DNA of 64,000 nt from Lachnospiraceae bacterium AC2012 (lineage in GTDB: Bacteria > Bacillota > Clostridia > Lachnospirales > Lachnospiraceae): assembly GCA_000702525.1 (NCBI GenBank), contig JNIN01000001.1, forward strand, positions 558,001-622,000. The letters run 5' to 3'. This document shows, one piece after another, positions 10,306 through 14,183 of this stretch. The position numbers and the translations under genes were made by a program. The notes below the pieces were generated by a model. It did not search any database, had not been told where the DNA came from, and saw only the letters and a program-made list of their open reading frames with translations. Every line of letters starts with the position of its first letter. Positions within the stretch are counted from its first letter, which is position 1.

Positions 10306-11412
10306 TTATTGTGGTACCTCTGCAGAATAAACATTCTGATCTGCATAGGCATTCTGAATCAGAGAAACCCAAGTCTGTCCCTGATTTAAAACGATTTCAT
10401 TTCCATCGTTATCATAGTAATGTGTCACACCGGAATCACTATCTTTCTTCCAAGTGATATCGATGATTTTACCATTGGTAATATACTTACCTGTTCCGCT
10501 TCCTACCAGTGGAATATTTAAGTACTGTGTTCCTTCATAGATCGAACTGTCTACATTCTGAAGAATGATATTTGTAACTGCAACCTGTTCGCCATCTACT
10601 TTATCAATCTGCTTATCACCAAACTGATAACGTAAGTATTTATGTGTCTCTTCATCATAAGTAAAGGATGGAGAATTGTTAAAGAAATACAGAGATACAT
10701 ATTTACAATCCTCTCCGGAAGCAAGTTCATTCACAGCACCATCCTCTGCAAACTGATAATGTCCTGTGTAACTGCTGTCATAAGCAGTATCATATCCCTT
10801 ATAAGAGATACCAGCGGCAATGCCCTCTGCACTCGTATAAGCATTGTGTGGCTTTGGATGTTCATCTGTACGGAAGAAAGTAACAGATTCTTCACCGCCA
10901 AGACCATTTAAGTCATCAACGATTCCTGTATTTAAGACTTCTTCACCCTGAACGCTCTGACCGAAGTGCACATAGATGGCATCGAATTCAGATGCAATAT
11001 AGGCATAGTACGGACGACAAGAACGTACATTACCAATCTGTGTTAAATTCTTGTAATCATCATAAATAGCCATTAAACGAGTGATACCACCCTCTACTGG
11101 ACACTCATAAATGACACCCGCAGAATTCAGACCATACTGTGGCATGTTTACCTTGGTATTTTCTGTCATAATCGCGATTGGACGAGAAGAAGCAAGCGCT
11201 TCATCAATCCATTCACCAGTTAAAAGTGATTTCGCCATTCCCTCATGACTTCCATCATCAACAACAGTTTCTTCTGTTGCTTCTGGTTCTGTCGCTACTT
11301 CCTCAGTTTCTTTTGGCTGTTTCAATACAAAGCCCAAAATCACTGCAGCAATAATAATCACTGCAAAAGAAATTCCCATAATGAGCTTTTGCTGTTTAGT
11401 TAAGTTTTTCAT
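10306..11412 (-). CDS. DUF3048 domain protein, membrane-anchored (YerB-like)
   Basis: Extracytoplasmic protein of 368 residues. An N-terminal signal anchor (hydrophobic from about residue 11 to 30) is followed by an acidic Thr/Glu linker (EETVVDDGSHEG) and then the DUF3048 region. That region includes SRPIAIMTENTKVNMPQYGL near its start and GGITRLMAIYDDY, both typical of YerB-type proteins. There is no lipobox cysteine after the hydrophobic segment, so unlike many relatives it looks anchored by its helix rather than by lipid. The molecular function of DUF3048 is unknown. The ATG at 11412 is chosen because AGGAGGAGG lies just upstream; a longer frame would need a TTG inside that ribosome site. 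It overlaps the end of ybeY by 17 bases. Confidence 0.85.
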   Translation of the reverse strand: MKNLTKQQKLIMGISFAVIIIAAVILGFVLKQPKETEEVATEPEATEETVVDDGSHEGMAKSLLTGEWIDEALASSRPIAIMTENTKVNMPQYGLNSAGVIYECPVEGGITRLMAIYDDYKNLTQIGNVRSCRPYYAYIASEFDAIYVHFGQSVQGEEVLNTGIVDDLNGLGGEESVTFFRTDEHPKPHNAYTSAEGIAAGISYKGYDTAYDSSYTGHYQFAEDGAVNELASGEDCKYVSLYFFNNSPSFTYDEETHKYLRYQFGDKQIDKVDGEQVAVTNIILQNVDSSIYEGTQYLNIPLVGSGTGKYITNGKIIDITWKKDSDSGVTHYYDNDGNEIVLNQGQTWVSLIQNAYADQNVYSAEVPQ

Positions 11413-11923
11413 TCGTTTCCTCCTCCTCAAAACGATAGATTTTTAATATGTCTAATATTTCTCGTTGGCGCTGTTCCATCTCTTTTCTTTCATCCTCTTC
11501 CATATGGTCATAGCCCATGAGGTGAAGCATGGAATGTGCGATAAGAAATGCATATTCTCTTTTTACAGAATGTCCATATTCCTCTGCCTGTTCATAGATT
11601 TTTGGTACACATAAGACGATATCTCCCAGCACTACCTCATCTGTTTCCGGATTTGTGATATCATTCATATGCTCAAGTTCAGAGAAATCTCCGGCAGCTG
11701 GGAAATCCAACATTGGAAAGGATAATACATCCGTTGGACGATCGATTTCACGAAATTCCCGATTAGCTTCTTGAATGCCATCTTTATCCATAAACGTCAA
11801 GGATATCTCTACTTCATAAGGAAAATCTTCATGTTCCAAAGCTGCATCAATGACGTCCTCCGCTAGTTTTTTGTAGTCAAAAGGAAATGTTACTTCTGTT
11901 TCTTCTTCTACTAATAATGTCAT
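11396..11923 (-). CDS. ybeY: Endoribonuclease YbeY (rRNA maturation factor)
   Basis: YbeY is a zinc-dependent single-strand RNase involved in 16S rRNA 3' end maturation and ribosome quality control. The 175-residue product contains REIDRPTDVLSFPM and the metal site HSMLHLMGYDH, which fits the HGxLHLxGYDH motif with Ser replacing the usual second Gly. The ATG overlaps the stop of the upstream HD-family gene by 4 bases (ATGA). PhoH, a 7TM-HD protein and YbeY in this order form a conserved Firmicutes arrangement. The C-terminus has a Glu-rich tail. Confidence 0.96.
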   Translation of the reverse strand: MTLLVEEETEVTFPFDYKKLAEDVIDAALEHEDFPYEVEISLTFMDKDGIQEANREFREIDRPTDVLSFPMLDFPAAGDFSELEHMNDITNPETDEVVLGDIVLCVPKIYEQAEEYGHSVKREYAFLIAHSMLHLMGYDHMEEDERKEMEQRQREILDILKIYRFEEEETNEKLN

Positions 11924-13104
11924 AGAATCGATTCCTCCCTAATCATTCGTTCTCTGACTAATAAGAATTGATTAATACTCAGTCCGGATTCATCGTAGAA
12001 TCCACGCTGGGAATATTCATTCAACGTTTGATATATTACCATATCCTGGTTCCAATTGCTTCGCATGGATTCATTTTCTGATAATAATTCCATCTTCGTC
12101 ACAACAACATCGCACATATGAACGATGGCTGATTCCTGCGTTTGTGGCTTTTTGATAATTCCGCCATATTCTGCCAGGATGCTCACGACCTCTTTTGGGA
12201 AGCAATGATCATTTGCAGTTTTAATGGCATTTTGTATCTCTGGCTTTCCAAGAATCTTACCAAGTCGATAATACATACCTGCGCAAGCGGCAGCGAGATC
12301 ATTTCCTCGAATTTCAACCGTACAGGATCTCGCCAGACGACTTACGCGAATCGCATGACGGTACTCTGCATTTGAGAAACGTTTGATATCCTGTAGTAGT
12401 GGATGTTCCAATTCCAGAAGTGCCTCATAGGCTGCGGTATTCTGTTGATCGATCCATTTTAAAATCGAAGGGAAAATGACCAGCATAAAAAAGGCAACAA
12501 AGATGCTTTCACAAAACATCACAAGATATACCGTTTTTGTAATCTTTTGCAGTGCCAGATAACTAAAGGCAATGGAAACACAGAGGTTGATCGCAAAAGA
12601 AACTACAAATAGATATATTTTTGGAATACGAAAATCGGATTTCATTGCATTGGATAACAAAATTCCGAGGATGGAAATCAAAATATAGCCATATAAGTAA
12701 TAGAGATTCAATCCCTGAATGATGGTATAAATAACAGCAAGGTAGCAAGTCGCACCAATCGCCAGTCCATCATCTAAGATCGAATTCAGCAATAACCCAA
12801 TGAGTACAAACGGCATGAAATACTTAGGCGCAAAGGAAAAACCAATAATCAGAGCCCAGCTAAGCAGATGCATGATAAAGACTCTTTTATAATTACTTCC
12901 ATAATACGTTCCATTTAATCTTCGAATTACAAGAGATAGCACAAAAACAATGAAAAAACTACCGGTTATAATAGAAAGACATAAAATTTCATCTATTAAA
13001 ACCTCATTTCGAAGAAATAGAATCAGGATTCCAATGACATACAGCGCAATCGTACCAATAACCGTGACGATTCGTTCTAAAGAAAATTTACTTTCTTCGA
13101 TCAT
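11920..13104 (-). CDS. 7TM HD-family (PgpH-type) membrane protein with degenerate HD domain
   Basis: A 394-residue protein in the position normally held by the 7TM-HD c-di-AMP phosphodiesterase PgpH, between phoH and ybeY. About seven hydrophobic helices fill residues 11-215, and a cytoplasmic domain follows from about 225. That domain aligns in pattern with the PgpH HD domain: EYRHAIRVSRLA keeps the first metal His (H250) and AGMYYRLGK stands where YYHDIGK is expected. The H-D pair is therefore Y279-R280. The later His-His region is also absent (LAEYGGI), although PQTQESAIVHMCDVV still resembles the family. The large extracellular 7TMR-HDED domain of full-length PgpH is missing. Hydrolase activity is unlikely; a sensing or scaffolding role is inference. 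It overlaps phoH by 17 bases and ybeY by 4. Confidence 0.75.
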   Translation of the reverse strand: MIEESKFSLERIVTVIGTIALYVIGILILFLRNEVLIDEILCLSIITGSFFIVFVLSLVIRRLNGTYYGSNYKRVFIMHLLSWALIIGFSFAPKYFMPFVLIGLLLNSILDDGLAIGATCYLAVIYTIIQGLNLYYLYGYILISILGILLSNAMKSDFRIPKIYLFVVSFAINLCVSIAFSYLALQKITKTVYLVMFCESIFVAFFMLVIFPSILKWIDQQNTAAYEALLELEHPLLQDIKRFSNAEYRHAIRVSRLARSCTVEIRGNDLAAACAGMYYRLGKILGKPEIQNAIKTANDHCFPKEVVSILAEYGGIIKKPQTQESAIVHMCDVVVTKMELLSENESMRSNWNQDMVIYQTLNEYSQRGFYDESGLSINQFLLVRERMIREESIL

Positions 13105-14110
13105 GTCGTGCTTCCTTTTTTATTTTTGCATTTTTGTTTTTTGTCTTTTTCTCCTGCTTTTTCTCATAATCTTCGTATGCATTTACAATCTTTTGTACCA
13201 ATGGATGTCTTACGACATCGGCGCCAGAAAGTGTACATACACTGATATCATCAATGTTTTTTAACACATTCGTCGCTACATCAAGACCCGATGTCTGCCC
13301 ACTTGGAAGATCCTTCTGCGTCTGATCTCCAGTGATGACTGCTTTTGAACCAAATCCAATTCTGGTTAAAAACATCTTCATCTGTGCAGGTGTTGTATTT
13401 TGCGCTTCATCAAGAATAATGAAAGCATTATCAAGTGTTCTACCACGCATATAGGCAAGCGGTGCGACCTCGATTAAGCCTTTTTCCATATTTCTCTGGA
13501 AATTATCCGCCCCCATAATCTGATAAAGGGCATCGTATAAAGGTCTTAAATAAGGATCGATTTTACTCTGCAGATCACCCGGCAGGAATCCAAGCTTCTC
13601 TCCTGCTTCAATAGCTGGTCGTGTCAGAATAATTCTACTGACTTCTTCGCGTTGGAAAGCGGTGATTGCCATTGCCATCGCAAGATATGTTTTACCTGTA
13701 CCAGCCGGTCCAATACCAAAGACAATCATGTCATCTCGAATCGCATCGACATATTTCTTCTGTCCAATGGTTTTTGGTTTTACGGGCTTTCCCTGGATGG
13801 TATGGCAAATAATATCATCGTCAAGTGTCAGCATATCATGCTTTTTGATCTGTTCCTTCAGAGAAAGCGCATAATTTACATTCTGTTCTGTAATGGTGTT
13901 TCCTCTTTTCGAAAGTTCCAGCAATTCTTTTAAGACATCAGAAGCACTCTTAACGTCTGCTTCCTCTCCGGAAATCTTTACCTGATCATCCCGGAGTACG
14001 ATGGTGACATTAAGAGTGCTCTCGATCAATTTTAAATTTTTATCAAATTGTCCAAATATATTGCCTAAATGTTCCAATGGAATATTTGTAAAAACTTCTG
14101 TCAAACTCAT
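13088..14110 (-). CDS. phoH: PhoH family ATPase
   Basis: Predicted cytoplasmic ATPase of about 340 residues. It has an N-terminal KH-like RNA-binding region, then Walker A GPAGTGKTYLAMAMAI, Walker B as AFIILDEAQNTTP and the sensor segment VITGDQTQKDLP. This is the PhoH/YbeZ family, linked genetically to YbeY and RNA metabolism. The C-terminus is Lys-rich. The ATG at 14110 is preferred over a TTG eight codons earlier, because an AAGG lies upstream of it and the family normally starts near this point. It leads the phoH-HD-ybeY block, and its 3' end overlaps the HD-family gene by 17 bases. Confidence 0.95.
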   Translation of the reverse strand: MSLTEVFTNIPLEHLGNIFGQFDKNLKLIESTLNVTIVLRDDQVKISGEEADVKSASDVLKELLELSKRGNTITEQNVNYALSLKEQIKKHDMLTLDDDIICHTIQGKPVKPKTIGQKKYVDAIRDDMIVFGIGPAGTGKTYLAMAMAITAFQREEVSRIILTRPAIEAGEKLGFLPGDLQSKIDPYLRPLYDALYQIMGADNFQRNMEKGLIEVAPLAYMRGRTLDNAFIILDEAQNTTPAQMKMFLTRIGFGSKAVITGDQTQKDLPSGQTSGLDVATNVLKNIDDISVCTLSGADVVRHPLVQKIVNAYEDYEKKQEKKTKNKNAKIKKEARHDRRK

Positions 14111-14183
14111 AAATCTAAATACCTTACTAAACAAATTATCTTTTATTCTACCATTTTATAAGCTTAAATCATAGTATTTCTCT

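Follow-up and report, generated by a model that had tools for sequence, protein, structure and literature searches.

A reduced and probably non-catalytic descendant of the c-di-AMP phosphodiesterase PgpH at the phoH-ybeY locus of Lachnospiraceae

The gene located between phoH and ybeY in Lachnospiraceae bacterium AC2012 encodes a 394-aa descendant of PgpH, the 7TMR-HD membrane enzyme that functions as a c-di-AMP phosphodiesterase, and this descendant is probably a non-catalytic, membrane-anchored pseudo-phosphodiesterase that most likely acts through protein binding. Judging from its sequence, hydrolysis of c-di-AMP by the 394-aa protein is very unlikely, and its HD domain is presumably metal-free. 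From the presence of an HD protein at the PgpH locus, one would expect these bacteria, which are abundant in the gut and the rumen, to have c-di-AMP hydrolyzed by a second enzyme; given that the sequences found at this locus contradict such an expectation, GdpP is probably the main c-di-AMP hydrolase in the family. Among the matches listed from the open-licence literature, covered as titles and beginnings of abstracts, there was no report of a PgpH pseudoenzyme, of a PgpH without the extracellular domain (hereinafter ED-less PgpH), or of a PgpH from Lachnospiraceae.

The gene, its neighbors and the fold of the protein

The window (the whole analyzed stretch of 64,000 nucleotides) carries the gene on the minus strand as a single uninterrupted frame (11920..13104), which shares 17 nt with the upstream neighbor phoH (13088..14134, minus strand, with the frame starting at TTG; Pfam PhoH, 323 bits) and 4 nt with the downstream neighbor ybeY (11396..11923, minus strand; PF02130, 164.5 bits, scored at the corresponding position in the genome). 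This confirms the initial annotation, in which the frame of 394 residues was described as open from start to stop and overlapping both neighbors. The only Pfam family listed for the protein at E<=10 is 7TM-7TMR_HD (PF07698; residues 44-212, 26.5 bits with a cut-off of 29.4), and no Pfam or NCBIfam model scores over its own cut-off; PF07698 is matched at E<=1 by 15 of 29 members of the reduced family to which the protein belongs. HDOD (PF08668) is not listed for the 394-aa protein at E<=10, in a search where filters drop most matches above ~0.1, and is matched weakly by 2 of the 29 family members (best 0.15).

In an AlphaFold2 model computed from 56 sequences (mf58cd531c8d7; mean pLDDT 88.6, pTM 0.73), the first predicted helix (residues 9-32, presumably membrane-spanning; 13009..13080, minus strand) is connected to the next one (residues 37-63) by a loop of four residues (33-36; 12997..13008, minus strand), which occupies the place of the extracellular 7TMR-HDED domain of canonical PgpH; in two full-length relatives (L188 and L189), this domain spans residues 36-246 and 41-294, respectively. 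The rest of the membrane region, delineated from the PF07698 match and the model helices, covers residues 37-215 (12460..12996, minus strand), the C-terminal limit being approximate, and is followed by a degenerate cytoplasmic HD domain (residues 231-394; 11923..12414, minus strand) recognized by structural matches to the HD domain of PgpH.

As the reference for the HD fold, we used the structure of the HD domain solved for PgpH from Listeria (Lmo1466; PDB 4s1b/4s1c). A profile of the 29 family members matches 4s1b with E=1e-24, in three blocks that are split by stretches without a counterpart in the family, and superposition (VIA) of the predicted model on 4s1c_A yields Z 20.5 and an rmsd of 1.8 over 158 residues, with model residues 233-394 superposed on residues 497-707 of 4s1c (ranges only). 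The best match among solved structures outside PgpH reaches Z 13.0, compared to 20.5 for the PgpH HD domain, and in a Foldseek search of the solved structures all four chains found at E<=1e-3 belong to PgpH (E=1.2e-6). In the predicted model, the cytoplasmic part thus is an HD fold of the PgpH type. Membership in another 7TM family was considered and rejected since only PgpH chains match at E<=1e-3, this match concerning the HD part; the homology to PgpH proposed in the initial annotation is supported by the locus, the profile and the predicted fold alike.

The metal ligands of PgpH we take to be H514, H543, D544, H580, H606 and H607. By profile alignment and by superposition on the PgpH HD domain, H250 (12355..12357, minus strand) maps onto H514, the first metal His, and Y279-R280 (12265..12270, minus strand; also read in the DNA) map onto H543 and D544, the HD dyad. 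The alignments give the ligand pattern of the 394-aa protein as H-YR-E-YG-D, in which the place of the HH cluster is occupied by Y313-G314 and the residues kept besides H250, neither of them mentioned in the initial annotation, are D332 (12109..12111, minus strand), which corresponds to D648, the final Asp of the metal site, and K283, the Lys of the HDIGK motif. A review (PMC12072042) describes Asp648 of PgpH as binding one iron and Lys547 as stabilizing the oxyanion. The HD domain has lost two stretches, one of roughly 26 residues after HDIGK and the other of roughly 28 residues after the HH motif; the YFYxKA-like stretch that follows HH in the active relatives is absent from 11 aligned family members, and the C-terminal tail of these members differs from that of the active relatives. 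The remainder of the domain was examined for an intact HD pair by profile, alignment and superposition, and none was seen. Thus, the retained first His, the Tyr-Arg dyad, the missing second His cluster and the missing extracellular domain all were read correctly in the initial annotation. The Tyr-Arg motif is not a chance feature because it recurs throughout a clade (see below).

Altogether, the protein resembles PgpH in its position between phoH and ybeY, the membrane region, the HD fold, the first His, the last Asp and the HDIGK Lys, and differs from it in lacking the extracellular domain, the HD dyad, the third His, the HH cluster and the two HD stretches, as well as in the C-terminal tail and a Pfam 7TM score below the cut-off.

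Distribution in Lachnospiraceae and the fate of the metal ligands

We searched 200 genomes of the sampled family, which we infer to be Lachnospiraceae, with one genome per genus and with a profile match >50 bits defining a member. The reduced PgpH is represented in at least 59 of these genomes (51 in a search with the 394-aa protein alone), a lower bound given that up to nine candidates were scored per genome; 141 genomes have no match >50 bits, and five have no match at all. Among the other matches listed, scores are ~40 bits or less, and those in the remaining genomes are confined to the profile positions around 245-338 and mostly come from frames of 517-564 aa, so that, by size and position, they are taken for RNase Y. 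No 7TMR-HDED domain was detected over the Pfam cut-off in any of the 200 genomes; the single match below the cut-off (20.7 bits) lies in a 191-aa frame of one genome (G003), whereas three of the 14 control genomes, including that of B. subtilis, did contain the domain.

The locus was examined in the best 80 of 158 named relatives, which come from Lachnospiraceae, Pseudobutyrivibrio, Roseburia, Butyrivibrio and Agathobacter, along with a few Eubacterium, Eubacteriaceae and Clostridiales. Within this set, YbeY is encoded at most 150 nt downstream in all 80 loci, PhoH at most 150 nt upstream in 78, and the frame measures 380-432 aa in 74; the two loci without a close PhoH are L087, where the frame was called with an upstream extension, and L105, where it is broken. 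The latter, from Butyrivibrio fibrisolvens 16/4, has 197 aa as the longest matching piece, which could reflect either a draft error or a lesion. For 20 divergent members, YbeY adjoins the gene in every case and PhoH in 18, the stretches of the other two ending before it.

Among the 141 genomes without the gene, the locus was read in 60 that were chosen by hand from those with YbeY placed. In 57 of these, phoH and ybeY are located at most 400 nt apart; among the other three, two have another ORF in between and the third showed no PhoH within the stretch that was read. The gene is therefore absent from many genera and its function cannot be universal. In one family genome that has no PgpH-like gene, phoH and ybeY flank a gene for 3-dehydroquinate synthase (identified by Pfam; L261:1646-2761), and in another one, without a family protein, this place is taken by a 213-aa membrane ORF (L272:2834-3475), possibly a remnant of the PgpH membrane part, the profile comparison being weak (31% probability).

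None of the 59 family members retains the complete set of metal ligands. The place of the dyad Asp is occupied by D in 4, E in 12, R in 24, K in 8, H in 5 and another residue or a gap in 6 members, and that of the dyad His by H in 36 and Y in 16, whereas the first His is retained in 44 and the last Asp in 46. The segment containing the third His is shortened in all 59 members, with a spacing of 0-10 residues from the dyad motif (4 residues in 43 members), compared to 30-32 residues in all 19 sister-family proteins described below. A second set consisted of 120 distinct proteins from 164 loci, with duplicates removed by the last 330 residues; it is weighted toward close, best-scoring relatives and includes the fragments L105 and L023. 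In this set, the Asp place is occupied by R in 103 proteins, 89 proteins have Y in place of the dyad His (84 Tyr-Arg and 5 Tyr-His), and the HDIGK Lys is retained in 65. The HD Asp is not kept in any of these 120 best-scoring proteins, whereas among 20 added divergent members there are 4 with HD and 8 with HE; given that the 120-protein set held only the best-scoring members, we took the count of the HD Asp over the 59 genomes. Between positions 514 and 648, E was counted in 12 of 19 R/K rows, as opposed to 2 of the other 101; this charge-pair covariation is strong by counts, but was dropped because the independent events are too few.

Sister families and the order of loss

An order-wide search of 294 genomes revealed PgpH-sized frames in many genomes of sister families and only weak RNase Y-like matches in some families (e.g., f6 and f10). 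From this listing, 19 sister-family genomes were picked by frame size, and their proteins comprise 6 canonical PgpH (675-774 aa) and 13 proteins without the extracellular domain (457-519 aa; L175-L187) that come from the groups f3, f18 and f19. All 19 genes are located between phoH and ybeY, and the ligands of all 19 proteins follow the pattern HHDHH[HQ]D, the alternative place, counted as the seventh, being occupied by Gln in 8 proteins (7 of the 13 ED-less ones). In the three ED-less proteins that were scanned, the Pfam 7TM and HD domains were found and 7TMR-HDED was not. These proteins share with the 394-aa protein the locus, the lack of 7TMR-HDED and the combination of the membrane region with HD but, unlike it, keep the dyad and at least six of the seven ligands (13 of 13) in a full-length HD domain, and represent a natural test of the role of the extracellular domain.

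Phylogenetic trees were built from 97 and 117 rows, with 78 of the 120 family proteins retained after exclusion of rows that were filled to less than 70% or were at least 72% identical to a retained row. In both trees, a branch with SH-aLRT 100 separates the reduced proteins from the rest. In the 117-row tree, the Tyr type is a single group of 52 rows, in which Tyr is paired with Arg in 49 and with His in 3; the 15 rows with HD or HE, 9 of which still have the first of the two His in the HH pair, are mostly found near the base and are followed by rows with His plus a basic residue. The ED-less proteins form a single group in the 97-row tree but not in the 117-row tree. Given that these are quick trees in which long branches meet and the grouping of the ED-less proteins is unstable, only the single origin and the broad order are relied upon. 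At this level, the sequences place the reduced proteins in one clade with a single origin, and fixation of the Tyr-Arg pair in a clade, which the initial annotation proposed to check, applies to the crown (49 of 52 Tyr-type rows) but not to the family as a whole, where the dyad Asp place varies across the 59 members. The result is a graded series of forms that extends from full-length PgpH through ED-less PgpH to shortened HD domains with HD or HE, with His plus a basic residue and, finally, with Tyr-Arg; several divergent members (L283, L284 and L300) are badly eroded.

Read along the tree, this series suggests an evolutionary scenario in which the extracellular domain would have been lost first, with the HD dyad retained. 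Excision of the two HD stretches would come next, taking the third metal His with them, followed by replacement of the dyad Asp by Glu and later by Lys, Arg or His and, in the crown that contains the 394-aa gene, by replacement of the dyad His by Tyr. The family thus displays the dismantling of a two-metal signaling enzyme, from the sensor domain through the third-His segment to the dyad Asp and the dyad His, with both end states visible, namely a conserved dead protein or the absence of the gene.

Selection, possible functions and the c-di-AMP pathway

Compared to the nearest relative (L041, 78% identical), the gene has pN 0.138 and pS 0.758 (ratio about 0.18) and its HD part pN 0.099 and pS 0.781 (ratio 0.13), whereas the pN of the neighbors is 0.059 for phoH and 0.073 for ybeY; we give no rate ratio because dS is saturated. 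By these sequence comparisons, the PgpH-like gene changes at about twice the pace of its two neighbors, yet far from neutrally. Among the 89 Tyr-type proteins, conservation is much higher in the HD part than in the membrane part: mean column entropy is 1.42 in the HD part and 2.55 in the membrane part, compared to 1.20 and 2.12, respectively, among the active relatives, and 19 positions are invariant across 56 proteins. Residues close to the C-terminus, such as W351, Y358, Q359, N362, S365, Y370, N378, F380 and R384, are near-fixed in the 89 Tyr-type proteins but not in the active ones. Retention of the gene by many genera, at an old locus and under selection, suggests a role that does not require catalysis.

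What remains of PgpH is a membrane anchor and a folded, presumably metal-free HD domain, which most likely functions as a regulatory or scaffolding subunit that is made together with PhoH and YbeY and contacts another protein, with the c-di-AMP hydrolysis of the family probably resting mainly on GdpP. Action by contact is proposed because the fold persists, Tyr and Arg have replaced the dyad, and the clade-specific conserved residues are found near the C-terminus. The candidate partners are PhoH and YbeY, the products of the overlapping neighbors, and GdpP and CdaA, the members of the pathway. The more specific proposal, that the dead HD domain of the crown clade, with a new conserved surface (residues ~351-387), is a membrane-tethered regulatory subunit of GdpP/CdaA or of PhoH/YbeY, is tentative; if correct, it would link the membrane either to the second messenger or to ribosome and RNA quality control. 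HDOD domains and degenerate HD-GYP proteins (e.g., Bd1817) are catalytically dead and regulatory, and are not known to carry the membrane region of PgpH. These folds of the HD superfamily match the model with Z 11.3 (3hc1) and 10.8 (3tm8), far below the 20.5 of PgpH and close to the values of many other HD entries, and can be regarded, by analogy, as precedents for a regulatory role. Several observations count against a non-catalytic binding role: H250, K283 and D332 are retained, none of which a purely structural domain needs; the lack of a match >50 bits in 141 of the 200 family genomes indicates that the gene is dispensable over evolutionary time; divergent members such as L283, L284 and L300 are badly eroded; and the members near the base with the H-HD/HE-D pattern could bind a single metal.

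The gene might instead be a slowly eroding relic, with PgpH made redundant by GdpP, its activity lost and the gene being discarded without the acquisition of a new function. Absence from many genera (with phoH adjoining ybeY in 57 of the 60 sampled), the graded loss of ligands up to the eroded L283, L284 and L300, and the about twofold rate of change relative to phoH and ybeY are compatible with such decay, which nevertheless appears unlikely given the pN/pS of about 0.18 (0.13 in the HD part) against the nearest relative, the presence of Y279 in 89 and of R280 in 103 of the 120 distinct proteins, the 19 positions invariant over 56 proteins, and the frames of 380-432 aa in 74 of the 80 named loci. 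The notion of a stable pseudoenzyme put forward in the initial annotation is supported with respect to the loss of most of the metal center and to retention across genera, as opposed to recent decay (pN/pS about 0.18).

It is similarly improbable, in our assessment, that the protein is a non-catalytic receptor of c-di-AMP or another nucleotide, in which the old pocket binds the messenger and the signal is transmitted via the membrane domain. The retained H250, K283 and D332, the preserved fold (rmsd 1.8 in the model) and the diadenylate cyclase domain in the source genome would fit this function; however, most of the metal ligands and the two HD stretches (roughly 26 and 28 residues) are lost, which makes a receptor less likely, and the HDIGK Lys is present in only 65 of the 120 family proteins. 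Enzymatic activity through other residues or a single metal is highly improbable. HD-superfamily enzymes with other metal numbers exist, and in 9 of the 15 HD/HE tree rows the leading His of the HH pair persists, which together with H514 and D648 could bind one metal; however, both the 394-aa protein and the crown clade have Tyr plus Arg or His in the dyad and lack the third His and the HH pair.

The source genome (2.55 Mb, 99.9% complete) encodes one diadenylate cyclase domain, and DHH matches are present in four of its frames, one of which (317 aa) has the size of a stand-alone DHH/DHHA1 protein. The suggestion that the protein regulates an intact paralogue was not borne out: no second PgpH-type protein was found over the Pfam cut-off in this genome, and the phosphodiesterase that is present, the unrelated GdpP, has a gene cut by an in-frame TAG. 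The other PF07698 matches in the genome (13.8 and 12.1 bits) were rejected, the first being located in a frame of an ECF riboflavin transporter S component (Pfam). In gdpP, which is located outside the window (G000:C1:1674958-1677006, L007; L238:4956-7007), the TAG follows residue 458, within the DHH domain, and is itself immediately followed by an ATG that opens 224 codons; the first piece contains the Pfam GdpP GGDEF domain and the start of DHH, and the second one the rest of DHH and DHHA1. This stop may be a sequence error or a strain adaptation, or may be bypassed. If real, it is notable because B. subtilis is reported not to tolerate the joint loss of GdpP and PgpH, which is toxic to it (PMC12072042).

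A full-length GdpP is encoded by the genomes of 16 of the 17 named relatives and by 2 of the 3 congeners, sets that share assemblies, and the sole exception in both is one incomplete assembly (the nearest congener, 78% complete). Given that rplI, the neighbor of gdpP in the source genome, is missing from this assembly as well, the missing GdpP is uninformative, and its loss as a genus trait was rejected. Across the family, a GdpP match at E<=1e-40 was detected in 197 of the 200 genomes; one stop is counted in some of these rows, and in the other genomes listed the match extends as far as the query does, the single stop being taken for the natural end of the protein.
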